A DNA stretch of 40,182 nt from Pseudohongiella sp. (GTDB lineage: Bacteria; Pseudomonadota; Gammaproteobacteria; Pseudomonadales; Pseudohongiellaceae): NCBI GenBank assembly GCA_013204155.1, contig JABMOK010000108.1:1-40182 (forward strand), written 5' to 3'. Position 1 is the first letter of the stretch. Each line of letters starts with the position of its first letter. This document shows positions 12,698 through 22,073 of the stretch, piece by piece. The translations under genes and the position numbers were made by a program. The notes below the pieces were generated by a model. It had not been told where the DNA came from, did no database searches, and worked only from the letters and a program-made list of their open reading frames with translations.

Positions 12698-14752
12698 GTG
12701 AAGCAGCGAAAAATCTTGGTAACACAGGCCCTCCCCTACGCCAACGGTGGAATTCATTTGGGGCACATGATGGAAGCCATTCAAACTGATATTTGGGTTC
12801 GCCTGCAAAAAATGCGCGGTCATGACTGCGTCTTCGTCTGTGCCGACGATGCCCATGGCACGGCAATCATGCTGAGTGCCAAGAAGCAGGGAATCACTCC
12901 AGAGCAGTTAATTGATGCGGTTAACAAACAACATCAGCGAGATTATGCGGATTTTCTAATCAACTTCGACAATTTTCATTCAACCCATTCGGAAGAAAAT
13001 CGCCAACTATCGGAGTCTATCTACAAGGCGCTGGATGCAAATGGTCACATTAATCGCCGCCGTATCAAGCAATTATTCGACCCGGAAAAAAATCTGTTCC
13101 TAGCGGACCGCTATATCACAGGCAGCTGCCCCAAATGCAAGGCCGAAGGTCAGTATGGCGATAACTGCGAAGCCTGTGGCTCGACTTATAGCCCGGCAGA
13201 ATTGATTAACCCACGCTCTTCGATCTCGGGCGCGACGCCAATCGAGAAGGAGTCAGAGCATTTCTTTTTCGCGCTGCCAGTTTTTCGTGACATGCTCAAA
13301 GATTGGACTCGCAGCGGAACTCTGCAAGACGCCGTCGCGAACAAACTCAGCGAATGGCTAGACGATGAACTGCAGGAGTGGGATATCTCTCGTGACGCTC
13401 CCTATTTTGGCTTCGAAATACCCGGTGAGGAAGGCAAATATTTCTATGTCTGGCTAGACGCGCCAATAGGCTATATGGCCAGTTTCAAAAATCTCTGCGA
13501 CCGTAGCGATTATAACTTTGACGAGTACTGGAATCCCGGTCAGGACACCGAGCTCTATCATTTTATCGGCAAGGACATTATTAATTTTCATACCCTGTTC
13601 TGGCCAGCGATGTTAACCAGTGCGGGTTATCGCACCCCGACAGCCGTATTTGCCCATGGCTTCCTCACAGTTGATGGCACCAAGATGTCAAAATCGCGTG
13701 GCACATTTATCAACGCCAGGACTTATCTGGATCACTTGAATCCGGAATATTTACGCTATTTCCTTGCCGCAAAACTGTCTAACGGTATCGACGATCTTGA
13801 TCTCAATCTGGAAGATTTTGCGCAACGTGTCAATTCAGACCTGGTTGGCAAGGTAGTGAACATTGCCAGTCGTTGTGCCGGATTTATCGACAAGGGCTTC
13901 GAAGGCTTTCTAGCCGAAGAATTGGATAACACGCGATTGCTGACCGAAATCCAGAGCGCCAAGGACGAAATTACCAAGCACTTCGAACAGCGGGAATACA
14001 GCAAGGCGATTCGAATGATCATGGCGCTGGCTGACAAGGCAAATCAATACATAAATGACAAACAACCTTGGGTGATTGCAAAGACCGACACACAATCTGC
14101 CGAGTTACAGGCGATATGTAGCAGCGGAATCAACGCCTTTCGCTTATTAATCTGTTATTTGAAACCGGTACTCCCGGCTATGGCTGAACAAGCGGAACAG
14201 TTCCTTGCAATTGAGCCCCTACGATGGGATGACAGTGATAATTTATTGCGCGCCCACAAGATAAATAAATTCAAACCACTGATGACACGCGTGGAGTCAG
14301 ATAAGGTTCAGGCTATGGTGAATGCGACTCAGGAAGAATATTTAGAACAGCAACAGGCGAGCGCGGCGCTCAAGTCGAAGGCAACAGATGACAGCCGCTG
14401 CGTGGCGCCAGAAATCGACTTCGAGGATTTCGCCAAGGTCGATCTTCGAGTCGCTAAAATCATCTCGGCAGAACAGGTTGAGGGTGCCGAAAAATTACTT
14501 AAGCTGGGCCTGAGCCTGGGTGAAGACGAGCTTGGCAATGCCCTTACCCGAACAGTATTCTCCGGCATTAAATCTGCCTACCAACCGGAAGATCTGGTGG
14601 GGATGCTCACTGTCGTAGTCGCCAATCTTAAACCGCGAAAGATGAAATTCGGCCTCTCCGAAGGCATGATTCTGGCGGCTGGCCCCGGCGGCAAGGACAT
14701 CTGGTTGCTGGAGCCCCATCGCGGCGCCGAAGCGGGCATGCGTATTACCTGA
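12698..14752 (+). CDS. metG: Methionyl-tRNA synthetase
   Basis: Class I synthetase that charges tRNA-Met. The start is GTG, preceded by AAGGA. The HIGH motif appears as HLGH near residue 21. The zinc knuckle cysteines are CPKC and CEAC (about residues 144-161). The KMSKS loop is K329-S333. A C-terminal EMAP/Trbp111-like tRNA-binding domain (about residues 575-684, starting [15 protein letters not shown]) gives the long dimeric form, 684 residues in all, as in E. coli. It follows rubredoxin. The next 340 bp downstream are non-coding. Confidence 0.96.
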
Positions 14753-15091: not shown

Positions 15092-16603
15092 ATGAGGTTT
15101 CGTATTACCAAGACTGTAAAGCAGTTACTAGCAAATATTTTGCTTCCCGGCCTGCTGGCATCCGTTTCTCTTTCTGCTCTGGCACAAAATACCGAAATAA
15201 GGGAAATCGAAAGTTCTGTCATCAAAATCTATACGACTCAATCCGCTCCCGATTATTTTACTCCCTGGCGCTTATTAACACCGCGACAAAGTAGCGGCTC
15301 CGGTTCGGTTATCGCCGGCAATCAAATCCTTACCAACGCGCATGTGGTGGCAGATGCCAGCTACTTACAGGCACAGAAACACAATGATCCGCGCCGCTAT
15401 CAGGCACGCGTTACCTTCATTTCCCATGAAGCAGATCTGGCGCTTATAACGGTAGACGAGCCAGGTTTCTTCAGCGATTTAAAGGCACTCTCTATTGGCG
15501 ATTTGCCCGATCCACTGCAAGAAGTTTCCGTCTATGGCTTCCCCATCGGCGGTAAATCACTGAGCATTACCAAAGGTATTCTGTCCCGAGTCGAACAACA
15601 GGTTTACGCGCACGCCGGTTCTTATTTGCTGGCGGGTCAAATCGATGCGGCCATTAACCCGGGAAACAGTGGCGGTCCGGTTATTGTCGACCGGCAATTA
15701 GTCGGGGTAGTCATGCAAGCCAACAGCGGGGGTCGTGCTGAAAATTTGGGCTATTTTGTTCCCCCCAGCATGATTCGCCATGTTCTCGATGATAGCCTGG
15801 ATGGTGTCCATGATGGTTTTCCTGACTTGGGTTTTCGGACTCAAACCCTGGACAGTCCCTCCGCGAAGGCGGCCTATGGATTAGATGAGGATCAGAACGG
15901 TGTGCTGATCATCAAAATATTTGACGGCTCCCCTGCCCAGGGCATCCTGCAGGAAAATGATGTCATTCTTCAAATTGACGAGTTCGACATCGCCGAAGAT
16001 GGCAGCATCAAATTATCGGAAGACGTATTAACAGACTATAAACATGCCATCGACCTGCACCATGTCGGTGAATCCGTGGCAATCTCTTATTCCAGAGGCG
16101 GCAGGCCTGGAACAGCGACCCTGGAGGCAAGGCAGGCAAGGGACAGCTATAGTCTGGTGACTGGCGAGCAATTTGACAAACTGCCGGAATATTATATTTA
16201 TGGGGGCATCTTATTCGTGCCGCTTAATATGAATCTGATTAAGCGCTGGGGAAATGACTGGAGCCGTACCGCTCCCGTAAGTCTGTTACAGGCACGCAAC
16301 GAATGGAGCTCTCCCGATCGAAGACAGTTGGTTGTCGCCCAGCAAGTGATGGCATCCGACGTAAACCTGGGCTATCACGATTGGCGCAACTGGCTGGTGG
16401 ATTCGGTAAATGGCGTACAGATACAAGATTTTGCCCATTTCGCTGAGCTCATAAAACGCAACCAGCAAGATAATATCGTGCTTGAAAACAGCACTGGCTA
16501 TCAATTGGTTATTAATCACCAGGCGGCCATTGCCAGCGAAGCAGAAATTCTTTCCCGCTATCGAATCCCGGCGGCCTATTCTGCAGGATTATTCGAGGAA
16601 TAA
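15092..16603 (+). CDS. Periplasmic Deg-type serine protease with PDZ domain
   Basis: A secreted S1C-family serine endopeptidase of 503 residues. A signal peptide is clear, with a likely cut after LSALA (residue 31). The trypsin-like domain carries the full catalytic triad: H84 in LTNAHVV, D115 in ADLALI and S193 in NPGNSGGP. A PDZ domain follows (about residues 245-335; GVLIIKIFDGSPA, LQENDVILQID). The remaining C-terminal 150 residues, with YGGILFVPLN, resemble the extension of plant Deg9-type proteases rather than bacterial DegP/DegS. It probably degrades or processes damaged envelope proteins. Which substrates it cuts is not shown. Confidence 0.88.
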   Translation: MRFRITKTVKQLLANILLPGLLASVSLSALAQNTEIREIESSVIKIYTTQSAPDYFTPWRLLTPRQSSGSGSVIAGNQILTNAHVVADASYLQAQKHNDPRRYQARVTFISHEADLALITVDEPGFFSDLKALSIGDLPDPLQEVSVYGFPIGGKSLSITKGILSRVEQQVYAHAGSYLLAGQIDAAINPGNSGGPVIVDRQLVGVVMQANSGGRAENLGYFVPPSMIRHVLDDSLDGVHDGFPDLGFRTQTLDSPSAKAAYGLDEDQNGVLIIKIFDGSPAQGILQENDVILQIDEFDIAEDGSIKLSEDVLTDYKHAIDLHHVGESVAISYSRGGRPGTATLEARQARDSYSLVTGEQFDKLPEYYIYGGILFVPLNMNLIKRWGNDWSRTAPVSLLQARNEWSSPDRRQLVVAQQVMASDVNLGYHDWRNWLVDSVNGVQIQDFAHFAELIKRNQQDNIVLENSTGYQLVINHQAAIASEAEILSRYRIPAAYSAGLFEE

Positions 16604-16717: not shown

Positions 16718-17293
16718 GTGACCACTTATTTAAGCATTATCATCGCGGCTGCCCTGGTCAATAATGTCGTGCTGGTTCAGCTCCTCGGCGTCTCCTCCCT
16801 GTTTCTGTCAAACAGTCGGCTACAGAATACGATCGAACTCGCCACTCTCAACTTTATAGTCTTGTTTTCAGCCGCCGTAATTAATCTGTTGTTGTTCAGA
16901 TTCATATTGCTCCCGCTGGGCCTGGACTTTCTGAAACTGCTTTTTTTCGTGGCGATAAGCTCCAGCATTACCAAGCTACTGCTGCAATGGCTTAAACAAA
17001 GATTTCCACTTTCCCTGCGGCAACAAAAATTGGCTTTTTATCTGACCGGCGGGAATAGTGCGGTGATTGGTGTTTCTCTGCTAAACACTGTTAGTCACTT
17101 GAGTATTCCCCAAAGTATTGCCTACAGTCTGGGCGCGGCGCTCGGCTTCTCCTTGTTACTGGTCGCTTTCGCCGCCTTGCGGTTAAGGCTTGACAGTGCA
17201 GAGGTTCCCGCGCCTTTTCGTGGCACAGCAATCCAGTTAATCAGTGCCGGAATAGTCACCCTGTGTCTACTCGGCTTTGCCGGGCTGGTGTGA
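16718..17293 (+). CDS. rnfA: Rnf/Rsx electron transport complex subunit A, cluster cysteines missing
   Basis: Six-helix inner-membrane subunit of the Rnf complex, 191 residues with a GTG start. The family core is recognisable: LVNNVVLVQLLG at residues 13-24 and VPAPFRGTAIQLISAGI near the C-terminus. In characterised RnfA/NqrE proteins two cysteines (in GLCP near residue 26 and in TNCAVLG) help hold an intramembrane [2Fe-2S] cluster shared with RnfE. Here both positions are serine: S26 in GVSSLF and S114 in GGNSAVIG. The only cysteine left is near the C-terminus. The frame is intact and hydrophobicity is preserved, so this looks like a selected variant rather than a pseudogene. It is the first gene of rnfABCDE, 3 bp before rnfB. 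Confidence 0.88.
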   Translation: MTTYLSIIIAAALVNNVVLVQLLGVSSLFLSNSRLQNTIELATLNFIVLFSAAVINLLLFRFILLPLGLDFLKLLFFVAISSSITKLLLQWLKQRFPLSLRQQKLAFYLTGGNSAVIGVSLLNTVSHLSIPQSIAYSLGAALGFSLLLVAFAALRLRLDSAEVPAPFRGTAIQLISAGIVTLCLLGFAGLV

Positions 17294-17296
17294 TCC

Positions 17297-17890
17297 ATGT
17301 ACCCGCTTATCGCTACAGTTTATGTTCAAGCGCTGATCTACGCCCTCGGCTTACTCGCACTCGTGCGTTCGCTCTACAACGCAGTAACGCATTACAAATG
17401 GACACGCTCTGCACAGATAGCACTGGTTGATCAGATAAATCAGCTATTGCCGCAAACTCAATGTGGCCAATGCACGCACAAGGGATGTCTGCCCTATGCA
17501 CGGGCAATAGCGCAAGGCGAGGCCATTAACAAGTGTCCCCCTGGCGGTGTTGAGACGATTCGCGAACTCGCCAGTCTGCTGAATGAAACGCCGCTACCCC
17601 TTGACCCCACCCATGGTCAGAGCAAGCCTATCTCGCTAGCCGTAATTCGCGAAGATGAGTGCATCGGTTGCACCAAATGTATTCAAGCCTGTCCGGTAGA
17701 CGCCATTCTTGGCGGCGCAAAATTCATGCATACCGTTATCGCGCGCGAGTGCACCGGCTGCGACCTGTGCGTCGAGCCCTGTCCAGTAGATTGCATCGAT
17801 ATGATTAACCCAGGCGCGCTTGAAAGTGACAGTTGGAAATTAACCAACACACACCGACTCGAACAACCGTGGTTGGATTCAGGCTCATGA
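17297..17890 (+). CDS. rnfB: Rnf/Rsx electron transport complex subunit B (ferredoxin-like)
   Basis: Membrane-anchored iron-sulfur subunit of 197 residues, thought to be the electron entry or exit point of Rnf. It has one N-terminal helix (about residues 5-25), then the Fe4 domain with CGQCTHKGC and the fourth cysteine in NKCPPGG, then two [4Fe-4S] ferredoxin motifs, [12 protein letters not shown] and [12 protein letters not shown]. All twelve cluster cysteines are present, unlike the situation in RnfA and RnfE. The Fe4-domain motif has THK where GYP is usual. Its stop codon overlaps the rnfC start (ATGA). Confidence 0.94.
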
Positions 17891-19527
17891 GCATTGCCAA
17901 CAAATTCACCGCGTTAAGCGCTTGGCGTCATAAACTGCGCGCACATGCTACCCCGGGCGGAATTCGCCCCAAGGCCTATAAAAAGACTTCTCTGCGATCT
18001 CGCATCATGCCTACACCTATCCCCGGTCTTTTGATTCTGCCGCTTGGGCAACATCAAGGCACGGCCGCCGAAGCACTGGTTAGCGTGGGTGACAGAGTAC
18101 TCAAATATCAAACAATAGCCGCGGCCGCCCAATCCAATAGCGTTGCAGTTCACGCACCCACTTCCGGCACCATCGTCGCCATCGAAAATTCACCCGTTGC
18201 CAGGCTTGCTAACAATTTGAACGAAAGCCAGCTCTGTATTCATCTCGAACCCGACGGGAAAGACAGCGCCACTGAACTCTACCCCGAAAGCGATTATCAC
18301 TTGCTTGATCATTCTCAACTGCTTCAGAGAATTGCTGATGCGGGCATCTGCGGCATGGGCGGCGCCGGCTTTCCAACGAGAGACAAATTGCAACTGAGCA
18401 TCGATCACAAAATCGATTTGTTAATCATCAACGCCGTTGAATGTGAGCCCTACATCACAGCCGATGAAGCCTTGATACGGGAACGCGCCGAAGCGGTGGT
18501 GCAAGGTGCCGAAATACTACTGGCAGCAACTCGGGCTAGTCGCTGTGTGATAGGGATAGAAGACAGTAAAACCGATGCCATCACTAAACTGGTCGCGGCC
18601 CTTAAAAATAGCTCTGTCGAGTTAATGGTGATTGGCACAAAGTATCCTGCCGGCGGGGAAAAGCAACTTATTCAGGCCGTCACTGGCAAGGAAGTCCCCA
18701 GTGGATTGCATCCTGCAGATATTGGAATTTTGCTGCAAAATGCAGGAACCGCCTATGCCGCCTATAACGCCATAATCTTAGGCCAGCCTTGTATTAGTCG
18801 CATAACAACCTTGACAGGATTAGCACTACAGACACCGAAGAATTTCGAAACGCTGCTCGGTATCCCGATTTCATTTCTATTTGAGCTGTGCGGCATTAAT
18901 GAGTCTGCTCGCTTAAAAACCATCATAGGTGGTTCCATGATGGGGATAGAAGTTTCCAATACGGCTGTCCCGGTGACTAAAACTACGAACTGTGTCATAG
19001 CAGGCTGTGCCGAAGAGTTTCCCTCGCCCACGGATGAACACGCCTGTATTCGATGCGGCTTCTGCGCCACCGCCTGTCCTGCAAGCCTGCTACCTCAACA
19101 ATTGCTCAGCTATTCGAAATCCAGTGATCATCAGCAGTTGCAAGACCATGGCTTGTTTGATTGTATCGAATGTGGCGCCTGTGCCTATGTGTGCCCCAGC
19201 AAGATTCCTCTCGTGCAATATTATCGAGCCAGCAAATCAAAGATCAAAGCACGTCAAGCCAGTCATGCGCAAAGCGCTCGATGGCAGAATCGATTTCAAT
19301 TTCATCAATTTCGAATAAAGAAAACCGCTGATGACACTTCGAATAAAAAGCCCCGAGATACCCCGGCGGCAGACATCAAACCCAAGCTTGAGGATTTTTC
19401 CCGGGATGAAGCAAGACGAAAAATTGCCGATGCCGTTGCCCGTGTCCAGACTCGAAAGTCAAAACTGATCGCCAGCACAAAAAATGCCAATAGCAATAAC
19501 GGAAATATGCCGGGAGTGGAGGAATAA
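17887..19527 (+). CDS. rnfC: Rnf/Rsx electron transport complex subunit C (NADH-binding)
   Basis: Peripheral NADH:FMN subunit of 546 residues. I start it at the ATG at 17887, which overlaps the rnfB stop, rather than at a longer upstream opening of the frame. Order: a barrel-sandwich domain near the N-terminus (HATPGGIRP, then GILSP-like region), the NADH/FMN Rossmann-like domain with GMGGAGFPT and [14 protein letters not shown], the YPAGGEKQL and [12 protein letters not shown] stretches, then two [4Fe-4S] motifs [12 protein letters not shown] and [13 protein letters not shown] basic, low-complexity tail of about 90 residues ends the protein; such tails are common in RnfC. The nucleotide and cluster sites look intact. 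Confidence 0.94.
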
Positions 19528-20700
19528 ATGACTGCTCCAGGCCCAGGTTCGCCTTTGCAAACCAGCACGCAAACTATTGCTGGCATTATGCAACTGGTAT
19601 TATTGGCATTGGTGCCTGGAATCGCCATGGCGACCTGGTTTTTCGGATTTGGCATCTTGATCAATATTTTGTTGGCGGGTGTTACCGCTATCGCTCTCGA
19701 AGCCGCTATTCTTAAACTGAGAAAGAAAGACATCCGACTCCACCTCGGCGACTACAGTGCGCTGGTAAGCGCGGTACTGTTCGCCATCGCCGTGCCGCCG
19801 GGATCACCCTGGTGGCTGGTCATCATCGGCATCGTCTTTGCGCTAGTTTTTGCCAAGCATATGTATGGGGGCTTGGGTCAAAATCCGTTTAATCCCGCCA
19901 TGTGTGGCTATGTACTGTTGCTACTTGCTTTTCCCCTGGAAATGACCACCTGGCATATACCCAATGAAATCGTAAACAGTGCAATTCGTATCGATAGCCT
20001 GGGCATTGGGGATATCACTTCAGATCAACAAATATTAAGCCCGTTTAGCTGGCTTGGCCTGCAGCAGAGTCTTGTATTAACTTTTCCTTTTATTGCGCGC
20101 AATTCGCAACAACTCATCGACGGCCTGGCGATGGCAACGCCCTTGATCGAATTTAAAATGGCGGGTCACAGCGCGCTGTTGACGGCCTGGGACAACGGCC
20201 TGTCATGGTTCGACCGGGAATCTGCAACAGGCTGGGAGCTGATAAATATCGCTTACTTAGGCGGAGGCTTACTGCTGCTTTACAAGCGCATCATCAGCTG
20301 GCATATCCCGTTTAGTATCTTGCTGACGATTGGGGTAATTTCCAGTTTGTTTTATGCCCCCGACAGTGCCGCGATTTATGGCACTCCCTATCTTCACCTG
20401 TTCGGCAGCGCAACCATGATTGCCGCCTTTTTTATCGCTACAGACCCGGTTAGCGCTGCCACCAGTAATCGAGGAAGAATTATTTACGGCATCTTGATCG
20501 GCACTACGATCTATAGCATCCGTGTCTGGGGTAGCTATCTGGATTCCATTGCTTTGGCGGTGTTGTTTGGCAATTTTTGCGCGCCACTGCTCGACTATTA
20601 TTGTCGACCTCGCCGTTACGGACATTTAAGGCGAGGCCTTGTTCAGCGGCCAAATCAAGCGACAGAACAGCACAGGGAAAAAGGAATTGGCGAGTTATGA
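19528..20700 (+). CDS. rnfD: Rnf/Rsx electron transport complex subunit D, altered flavinylation motif
   Basis: Membrane subunit of 390 residues with about nine hydrophobic segments. The GGLGQNPFNPAMCGY motif near residue 114 is characteristic of RnfD/NqrB. In this family an FMN is attached through a phosphoester to the Thr of a D-x-x-S/T-G-A-T motif by the transferase ApbE. Here the site reads D198-G-L-A-M-A-T204: the Asp, Ala and acceptor Thr remain, but Ser/Thr and Gly are replaced by Ala and Met. Whether it is still flavinylated is uncertain. It starts directly after rnfC and its stop overlaps rnfE. In the usual operon rnfG follows, but it is absent here. Confidence 0.92.
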   Translation: MTAPGPGSPLQTSTQTIAGIMQLVLLALVPGIAMATWFFGFGILINILLAGVTAIALEAAILKLRKKDIRLHLGDYSALVSAVLFAIAVPPGSPWWLVIIGIVFALVFAKHMYGGLGQNPFNPAMCGYVLLLLAFPLEMTTWHIPNEIVNSAIRIDSLGIGDITSDQQILSPFSWLGLQQSLVLTFPFIARNSQQLIDGLAMATPLIEFKMAGHSALLTAWDNGLSWFDRESATGWELINIAYLGGGLLLLYKRIISWHIPFSILLTIGVISSLFYAPDSAAIYGTPYLHLFGSATMIAAFFIATDPVSAATSNRGRIIYGILIGTTIYSIRVWGSYLDSIALAVLFGNFCAPLLDYYCRPRRYGHLRRGLVQRPNQATEQHREKGIGEL

Positions 20701-21413
20701 GTAAATTAGAGTGCCAGGCTGAGGAGAGTCAATCGCTCTGGCAAAACAATCCTGTTTTGGTACAGCTGTTGGGCTTGAGTCCCGTGCTTGCGGTCTCTAC
20801 ATCCTTGGTCAATGGCATCGGCTTGGGAATAGCTACATTCATTGTCATGTTGCTTTCCTGCATTTCAGCTTCACTGCTTAAAGCGCAATTAAATAGCGCT
20901 TGGCGCTTCACCTGGTTCCTTCTCATCATGGCCAGCTACACCACTGCCTTGGACATTCTAATGCAGTGGCTGTATTTCCCTCTGTACAAGCAGCTTGGCA
21001 TTTATATACCGCTAATTTGCTGCAATATCGCAATCCTTGTTCGAATGGAAGTTCGGGCCTGCAACTCCCACTGGAAGCTGGCCGCAACAGATGCGGCTAA
21101 ATCTGGAGTGGCTTATCTGCTGGCAATAGTTTTACTCGCGGGATTGAGGGAACTTATTGGACAGGGAACATTATTTTCCGATTGGCAGCTGCTTATCCCA
21201 TCCACTTTGCTCACCGATATCAGCCCAAGTGAAATACAACACGATCAACTATTCGGCTTTGCGAAATTACAACCCATGGCTTTTATTTTGCTAGGCATCA
21301 TCGTCGCCCTGAAGAATTTTACCGACAGCTATTTTGCAAAAGAGACAGATACACAATTAGGAAATGGCGCAACAGTACAACGCGCTCGCGTAACCGGCCG
21401 CTTAAAGAAATGA
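20697..21413 (+). CDS. rnfE: Rnf/Rsx electron transport complex subunit E, cluster cysteines missing
   Basis: Six-helix subunit, homologous to RnfA with inverted topology. I start it at the ATG at 20697, which overlaps the rnfD stop (ATGA), giving 238 residues. The N-terminal LWQNNPVLVQLLGLSPVLAV clearly matches the family, which normally has GLCPLLAV: the cluster cysteine is S28 here. The second family cysteine, in TNC, falls at I111; two adjacent cysteines, C108 and C109, sit two to three positions earlier (IPLICCNIAIL). The mid-protein LREIIG-type motif is kept (LRELIGQGTLF). The next gene, nth, begins 24 bp downstream, as in related genomes. Confidence 0.9.
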   Translation: MSKLECQAEESQSLWQNNPVLVQLLGLSPVLAVSTSLVNGIGLGIATFIVMLLSCISASLLKAQLNSAWRFTWFLLIMASYTTALDILMQWLYFPLYKQLGIYIPLICCNIAILVRMEVRACNSHWKLAATDAAKSGVAYLLAIVLLAGLRELIGQGTLFSDWQLLIPSTLLTDISPSEIQHDQLFGFAKLQPMAFILLGIIVALKNFTDSYFAKETDTQLGNGATVQRARVTGRLKK

Positions 21414-21437: not shown

Positions 21438-22073
21438 ATGAATAGAAATACACGCACCGAAATTTTTAGCCGCTTGCGAGATGAGAATCCCACACCTACT
21501 ACCGAACTGAAATTCAGCAGCACCTTCGAATTACTTATTTCGGTAATTTTATCCGCCCAAGCGACCGATGTCAGTGTCAACAAAGCGACCGAAAAACTCT
21601 ATCGAATTGCTAACACCCCAGAGACAATCTTTGCACTCGGCGTCGATGGGCTCAAACGCTATATAAAGACTATCGGCTTATATAACACCAAGGCCGCGAA
21701 CATAATAAAAACATGCGATATTTTGATACAGCAACATGCTTCTGTCGTACCAGACACTCGTGAAGCACTGGAGGCTTTACCGGGAGTTGGTCGAAAAACG
21801 GCGAATGTAATTTTGAATACGGCCTTTCATCAGATCGCCATGGCGGTAGACACGCATATTTTTCGTGTATCCAATCGAACCGGAATTGCTCCCGGCAAGA
21901 ATGTACTGGAAGTAGAGAAACGTTTGCTACGCCTGGTTCCCGAAGAATTTTTATTAGATGCGCATCATTGGCTAATTCTGCACGGTCGTTATGTCTGTCT
22001 GGCGCGCAAGCCGCGCTGCGGCGCTTGCGTCATCGAAGATCTGTGCGAATATAAGCAAAAGCCGTCAGAATAA
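21438..22073 (+). CDS. nth: Endonuclease III (DNA glycosylase/AP lyase)
   Basis: Base-excision repair enzyme that removes oxidised pyrimidines and nicks the abasic site. The 211-residue protein carries the helix-hairpin-helix LPGVGRKTANV with the catalytic Lys, the catalytic Asp in MAVDTHIFRV, and the C-terminal [4Fe-4S] ligands spaced C-x6-C-x2-C-x5-C (CLARKPRCGACVIEDLC). It follows rnfE by 24 bp, the arrangement found in other gammaproteobacteria. It converges on argG across a hairpin terminator. Confidence 0.96.
   Translation: MNRNTRTEIFSRLRDENPTPTTELKFSSTFELLISVILSAQATDVSVNKATEKLYRIANTPETIFALGVDGLKRYIKTIGLYNTKAANIIKTCDILIQQHASVVPDTREALEALPGVGRKTANVILNTAFHQIAMAVDTHIFRVSNRTGIAPGKNVLEVEKRLLRLVPEEFLLDAHHWLILHGRYVCLARKPRCGACVIEDLCEYKQKPSE

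Follow-up and report, generated by a model that had tools for sequence, protein, structure and literature searches.

The window analysed here is the whole 40,182-nucleotide stretch of Pseudohongiella sp. DNA (contig JABMOK010000108.1, assembly GCA_013204155.1). It carries an rnf operon at positions 16718 to 21413, and the gene coordinates (Table 1) agree with an earlier reading of the sequence alone, namely rnfA-B-C-D-E with no rnfG between rnfD and rnfE. As rnfC abuts rnfD and rnfD overlaps rnfE, there is no space for rnfG in this operon. In the Na+-translocating NADH:quinone oxidoreductase (Na+-NQR) and in Rnf, the four RnfA/RnfE-type cysteines bind one intramembrane [2Fe-2S] cluster (excerpts of PMC9325719 and PMC12174285). 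At these positions the window encodes Ser26 and Ser114 in RnfA and Ser28 and Ile111 in RnfE (Ser29 and Ile112 when numbered from position 20694). The sequence-only reading had named the same four residues, and HMMER alignments to RnfA and RnfE chains of known structure (8ahx among them) placed the changed residues opposite the cluster cysteines. A structure prediction of RnfA was set aside for low confidence around the ligand site (mean predicted local distance difference test score, pLDDT, of 67.3, with residues 22-31 under 50).

The comparison covered 117 relatives searched with RnfA and 137 family genomes searched by profile. The window's genus comprised 84 genomes (G000-G072 and G170-G180), and a variant rnfA, defined by a profile score over 200 bits, was found in 42 of them. 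As controls, 17 rnf loci were used, each from a different genome and together representing 17 further families of the order; the search behind them had covered 44 genomes of other families. The 22 relatives that were aligned to the window share 44-79% identity with it. RnfA site 1 is serine in 41 of the 42 genus rows (proline in L239, a broken operon), and so is site 2 (glycine in L077). RnfE site 1 is serine in 35/35 rows, while site 2 is Phe, Val, Ile, Met or Leu in all 33 readable rows and cysteine in none, two rows being gapped. The order controls retain cysteine at all sites (RnfA 17/17, RnfE 15/15). The same state across the 42 RnfA rows of the genus rules out sequencing error as the cause of the change, which had been read as coherent and is clade-wide. 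The serines are encoded by TCN at RnfA site 1 (41/42), by AGY at RnfA site 2 (41/42) and by AGY at RnfE site 1 (34/35). These codons fit one cysteine-to-serine step per site, after which the changes would have been almost all synonymous. Ser26 is among 16 invariant RnfA columns in 23 aligned genus rows.

RnfE has two cysteines shortly before the lost site 2 (C109 and C110 from 20694), and the second of them, two residues before the site, is present in 31/33 readable genus rows. Together with the conserved serine sites, this cysteine could suggest that electrons still cross the membrane through another cofactor, for which it and the three serines would be the ligands. One cysteine and three serines are, however, poor [2Fe-2S] ligands, and the RnfA threonine pair directly before site 2 is mostly glycine in the genus. 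Moreover, in group g50 of the same family, a first form of the operon (A-B-C-D-E; six RnfA and five RnfE rows) has Glu/Asp, Ser, Ala and Ala/Gly at the four sites and is without such an RnfE cysteine. We consider another cofactor distinctly unlikely.

Losses elsewhere in the subunits were counted at positions invariant in the controls, using 36 genus rows for RnfA, 30 for RnfE, 25 for RnfG, 31 for RnfD, 36 for RnfB and 34 for RnfC. Of these positions the genus has lost 37/91 in RnfA, 24/75 in RnfE and 15/28 in RnfG; the corresponding counts are 5/72 in RnfD, 6/53 in RnfB and 12/114 in RnfC. By these counts the damage is concentrated in the predicted transmembrane relay, and the cytoplasmic modules are spared. 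All 13 control cysteines of RnfB are present in 38/41 rows, the other three rows being cut or broken; all 10 of RnfC are present in 35/39 rows and the last eight in 39/39. The earlier observation that the frames are open and the RnfB and RnfC motifs preserved is supported. The RnfD flavin threonine is kept in 36/36 genus rows. In NQR, mutation of NqrE-E95 abolishes Na+ pumping (excerpts of PMC10643135). The RnfA glutamate that an alignment to the NqrE of the same genome places opposite NqrE-E95 is absent in 42/42 genus rows and present in 15/17 controls (absent in 2/17).

Table 1. Genes of the rnf operon and its neighbours in the window
Feature	Position	Strand	Remarks
rnfA	16718..17293	+	GTG start, 191 amino acids; both ligand cysteines replaced by serine (S26, S114)
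rnfB	17297..17890	+	13/13 control-conserved cysteines
rnfC	17887..19527	+	ATG at 17887; NADH/FMN domain (Complex1_51K); 10/10 control-conserved cysteines
rnfD	19528..20700	+	covalent-FMN (flavin mononucleotide) threonine (MATPL) in place
rnfE	20697..21413	+	ATG at 20697; overlaps rnfD by four bases; Ser28 and Ile111 in place of the ligand cysteines
DegP-like protease with PDZ_3 domain	15092..16603	+	usual upstream neighbour of rnfA in the genus
nth, endonuclease III	21438..22073	+	usual downstream neighbour of rnfE
metG	12698..14752	+	usual rnf neighbour here and in the order-level controls

Three of the five products score over the curated cut-offs of their families: RnfB (TIGR01944, 224.7 bits; cut-off 68.7), RnfC (TIGR01945, 506.7; 245.95) and RnfD (TIGR01946, 365.2; 207.05). 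RnfA reaches 119.8 bits with TIGR01943, about half of the cut-off of 229.3, which is consistent with sequence divergence. RnfE is under the cut-off of TIGR01948 (153.3 bits; 213.4) and over that of NF009070 (186.5; 184). Both RnfA and RnfE are over the Pfam cut-off of PF02508. With starts set by alignment to the window's start, rnfA begins with GTG or TTG in 35/36 genus rows (the window and L043-L077) and in 2/17 order controls.

Selection was estimated from the ratio of nonsynonymous to synonymous substitution rates (dN/dS) in pairs with dS of 0.05-1.2, the pairs not being independent. Median ratios in the genus were 0.163 for rnfA (55 pairs), 0.131 for rnfB (55), 0.169 for rnfC (48), 0.092 for rnfD (37) and 0.256 for rnfE (30); the neighbours gave 0.048 for nth (29), 0.052 for metG (45) and 0.060 for degP (55). 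The ratios indicate that the rnf genes are under purifying selection, with a constraint that looks looser than that on the neighbours. Decay, in which the complex would be a dispensable relic heading for loss, could account for the raised rnfA and rnfE ratios, for the restriction of the variant rnfA to half of the genus genomes, and for the damaged copies. The latter comprise three broken operons (L064, L076 and L239) and the loci L081, L082 and L084 in G046, G016 and G070, at which stop-containing pieces of rnfA are all that is left of rnf between degP and nth. A fragment in G053 ends at a contig end and was not counted as decayed. However, of the 42 genus operons only seven are cut by contig ends, and among the remaining 35 there are 32 with rnfA to rnfE each in one open frame. 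The serines have been kept through synonymous change, all medians (0.09-0.26) lie far below 1, and the RnfB and RnfC cysteines are kept. The earlier reading had preferred a coherent re-engineering to decay, and decay is unlikely.

The sequence-only reading had also proposed the joint loss of RnfG, which is not supported. Six FMN_bind matches were found, and the best RnfG match lies on contig C185 directly after nuoN. It is under the cut-offs of both TIGR01947 (82.6 bits; 102) and PRK01908 (89.0 bits; 178). The first five Protein Data Bank matches of its structure model are the RnfG proteins of A. vinelandii, C. tetanomorphum and A. woodii (template modelling scores about 0.45-0.57), that of A. 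vinelandii being the best; the model was the best of five, with a mean pLDDT of 75.7 in a range of 39.1 to 75.7. Other FMN_bind proteins (L002-L005) were rejected as RnfG with TIGR01947 scores of 47.0, 46.6, 12.9 and 23.6 bits, and NosR models match L002, L003 and L005 better or about equally. Two of these four proteins are small and NosR-domain-like, one is encoded beside another membrane protein gene, and one is long and NosR-like.

Contig C185 carries, in this order, nqrA-F, apbE, sthA, a gene with a CBS domain, nuo A to N, rnfG and gpsA, and the RnfG homologue is found at corresponding places in relatives. All six g50 loci have the order nqr-apbE-sthA-rnfG, followed by gpsA in five and by the contig end in the sixth. 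From these gene orders, rnfG has moved into the nqr-apbE neighbourhood, probably a single time. The flavin acceptor of RnfG is serine instead of threonine in 25/25 aligned genus rows and the ETPGLG stretch is changed; the motif D-x-x-V-G-A-S is conserved. A full-length rnfG without stops is present in 28/84 genus genomes, 26 of which have the variant rnfA; the other two are G041 and G179 (58% complete). In the 42 genomes with the variant rnfA, rnfG is intact in 26, broken or partial in seven (in G066 at a contig end) and without a match in nine. Carriers with rnfG missing or broken include genomes that are 98-99% complete (G071, G025, G054 and G069). RnfG has been lost only in some relatives, as a later event in lineages that retained rnfA to rnfE.

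These data bear on a route to the periplasm, in which electrons would pass from NADH through RnfC, the RnfD flavins and the RnfG flavin (on serine) to a periplasmic acceptor, with RnfA and RnfE merely positioning RnfG. The NADH/FMN domain of RnfC, the RnfD flavin threonine and the RnfG motif are conserved as such a route would predict, and apbE is placed between nqr and rnfG. ApbE flavinylates threonine or serine, with a preference for threonine (excerpts of PMC12052999). The variant rnfA is present in 26/28 genus genomes with an intact rnfG and in 16/56 without one (Fisher p = 2e-8, uncorrected for kinship), and in g50 in 6/6 with and 0/9 without. Against the route stand the loss of the ETPGLG stretch and the 16 carriers in which rnfG is broken, partial or unmatched, some of them nearly complete genomes. 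We regard it as doubtful.

The search for a second rnf operon, for which the sequence-only reading had asked, found none: in the genome, which is 94.65% complete, the only PF02508 matches are rnfA, rnfE, nqrD and nqrE. The genome has its own nqrA-F, with the NqrD and NqrE cysteines in place. Some relatives (loci L078, L079, L080, L102 and L243) hold a further Rnf- or Nqr-like cluster, in the order C, D, E, A where seen, with its cysteines kept. SoxR-type regulation had been named earlier as an example of a non-electrogenic role, and the homologous E. coli operon, Rsx, does act as a SoxR-reducing system (excerpts of PMC12174285). No SoxR over the curated cut-off was found in the window's genome at its 94.65% completeness (best score 60.7 bits; cut-off 116.9). 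SoxR is over the cut-off in only 13/137 family genomes, and among the 42 genomes with the variant rnfA only in G011, G052, G057 and G072. The suggestion is not supported, and such a role is highly improbable.

Other reduced Rnf forms occur in the wider family. Groups g47 and g52 keep the cluster cysteines in all rows read (RnfA 11/11, RnfE 7/7), and of RnfC they show no more than an RnfC-like C-terminal iron-sulfur domain within an elongated RnfB frame. Loci L221, L224, L228-L232, L214 and L215 show this arrangement of RnfC with D-G-E present; no full rnfC over the cut-off was found in these genomes, which points to an Rnf without the NADH/FMN module. The second form in g50 (g50b; L248 and L263-L265) is A-B-C'-D', with only the iron-sulfur part of RnfC and an RnfD without the flavin loop, and neither rnfE nor rnfG was found at the locus. 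Group g46 is mixed, being canonical in L213, L214 and L218 or showing scattered losses; its dN/dS values are 0.372 for rnfA, 0.381 for rnfE and 0.431 for rnfG, with 0.094 for nth and 0.120 for metG. The cluster cysteines are lost in differing, scattered ways in L215, L216, L217, L219, L220 and L246, and the GAT acceptor of RnfG is kept in the five of these where rnfG was read (all except L219).

A tree of RnfB and RnfD unites g1, g48, g50a and g50b with a Shimodaira-Hasegawa-like approximate likelihood ratio support of 100. The uniting branch has a length of 0.62, so attraction is possible, and L077 and L063 are long rows. This tree contained 74/92 rows; L064, L239, L076 and L248 were left out by choice and 14 others, including L166, had too few columns. 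A tree of metG and nth (84/92 rows, with 180 residues as the minimum) joins g50 to g48 and g1 at a support of only 58. In it the control L096 falls within the g1 group and L068 falls outside, and three state changes are needed without g46. A single origin of the cluster-less groups is likely from the RnfB and RnfD sequences, and the metG and nth tree does not confirm it.

In the model of the canonical complex, the electron path runs from RnfB through the A/E cluster, RnfG, RnfD and RnfC to NAD+ (excerpts of PMC9588780 and PMC12174285). With the A/E cluster gone, the path from RnfB to RnfG through RnfA and RnfE would be cut. The reading that we favour, with slightly better than even confidence, is that the clade carries an inherited and still selected Rnf that would lack the transmembrane electron relay and part of the ion-coupling site and is most likely non-pumping. 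We suggest more tentatively, with a shade less than even confidence, that a redox-driven ion pump was converted to a non-pumping membrane oxidoreductase in the ancestor of the clade and that the former ligand sites, kept as serine, took on a new structural role. Other modules (NADH domain, RnfE, RnfG, flavin loop) would have been removed in sister lineages, forming a natural deletion series. RnfC and the soluble part of RnfB are firmly associated and lie on RnfD, with their nearest carriers 25 Å apart in the C. tetanomorphum structure (excerpts of PMC9588780). In the non-pumping complex that we favour, RnfA and RnfE would serve as a membrane scaffold. The NADH/FMN site of RnfC and the clusters of RnfB might then exchange electrons at the cytoplasmic face, with a mobile RnfB domain bridging the gap. 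This would be a short circuit of the kind avoided in the canonical complex, and the RnfD flavins may perhaps also be part of the route. Such an NADH/iron-sulfur oxidoreductase would be anchored in the membrane and would conserve no energy. The loss of rnfG with rnfA to rnfE kept, together with the minimal form in g50, favours this RnfB-RnfC route over that from NADH to the periplasm.

Several observations weigh against a non-pumping RnfB-RnfC enzyme. The 25 Å distance demands a moving domain, and in the absence of a gradient the reduction of ferredoxin by NADH is uphill. The genes rnfA and rnfE evolve faster than those around them, and 42/84 genus genomes are without the variant rnfA, although many of these are incomplete. 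RnfE mostly keeps an arginine (29/34 readable rows) and an acid (27/33) that were identified with the Na+ site of A. woodii from the motif and not from an alignment to A. woodii; this acid is absent in 5/5 g52 rows that retain the cluster cysteines. Conservation of the RnfD flavin threonine, and of the RnfG motif in genomes that have it, would suit a periplasmic flavin step that is still of importance. Locus L166 (fen_1219 metagenome-assembled genome, 4448-7243) has rnfA-D-G-E between metG and nth, with Asp, Ser, Ser and Cys at the four sites. It is without rnfB and rnfC between rnfA and rnfD, the opposite of what such an enzyme predicts, and runs against RnfB and RnfC always being the surviving part. 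The A. woodii complex is inactivated by the RnfG exchanges T185A and Y113A as well (excerpts of PMC11889175).

In a full-text literature search, with subscription journals and preprint servers mostly outside its coverage, no description of a cluster-less Rnf was among the papers listed, and no paper on 'Pseudohongiella' together with 'Rnf' was found. A clade that keeps Rnf under selection without the cluster would mean that the subunits of Rnf do something that can be separated from pumping, and the natural module deletions of the family make a stand-alone role of RnfB and RnfC directly testable. Na+-NQR shares a homologous A/E/D/G core with this system, but there NADH enters via NqrF and the cluster is present; according to Fadeeva et al. 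(as given in excerpts of PMC9325719), NQR requires its cysteines for folding or stability. In the sister genera g50b, g47 and g52 of the same family the rnf operon has been taken apart, and g47 and g52, unlike the window clade, keep the cluster cysteines. The A/E cluster is essential in the model complexes; an A. woodii variant deprived of the cluster cysteines shows neither ferredoxin:NAD+ activity nor growth (excerpts of PMC11889175). Both systems are without the RnfA/RnfE ligands, but that of A. woodii is an inactive laboratory mutant, whereas here a natural state appears to be maintained. The canonical RnfABCDGE/RsxABCDGE complex (A. vinelandii, 8ahx) is alike in the RnfB, RnfC and RnfD families and their motifs, and the metG-to-nth order is that of the order-level controls. 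The window clade differs from it in lacking the RnfA/RnfE ligands, in having rnfG outside the operon, in the serine acceptor of RnfG and in the loss of the RnfA acid. Homologous to Rnf as it is, the system lacks the cluster ligands and so should not be classed among functional Rnf ion pumps, a caution that an annotated rnf operon need not encode one.

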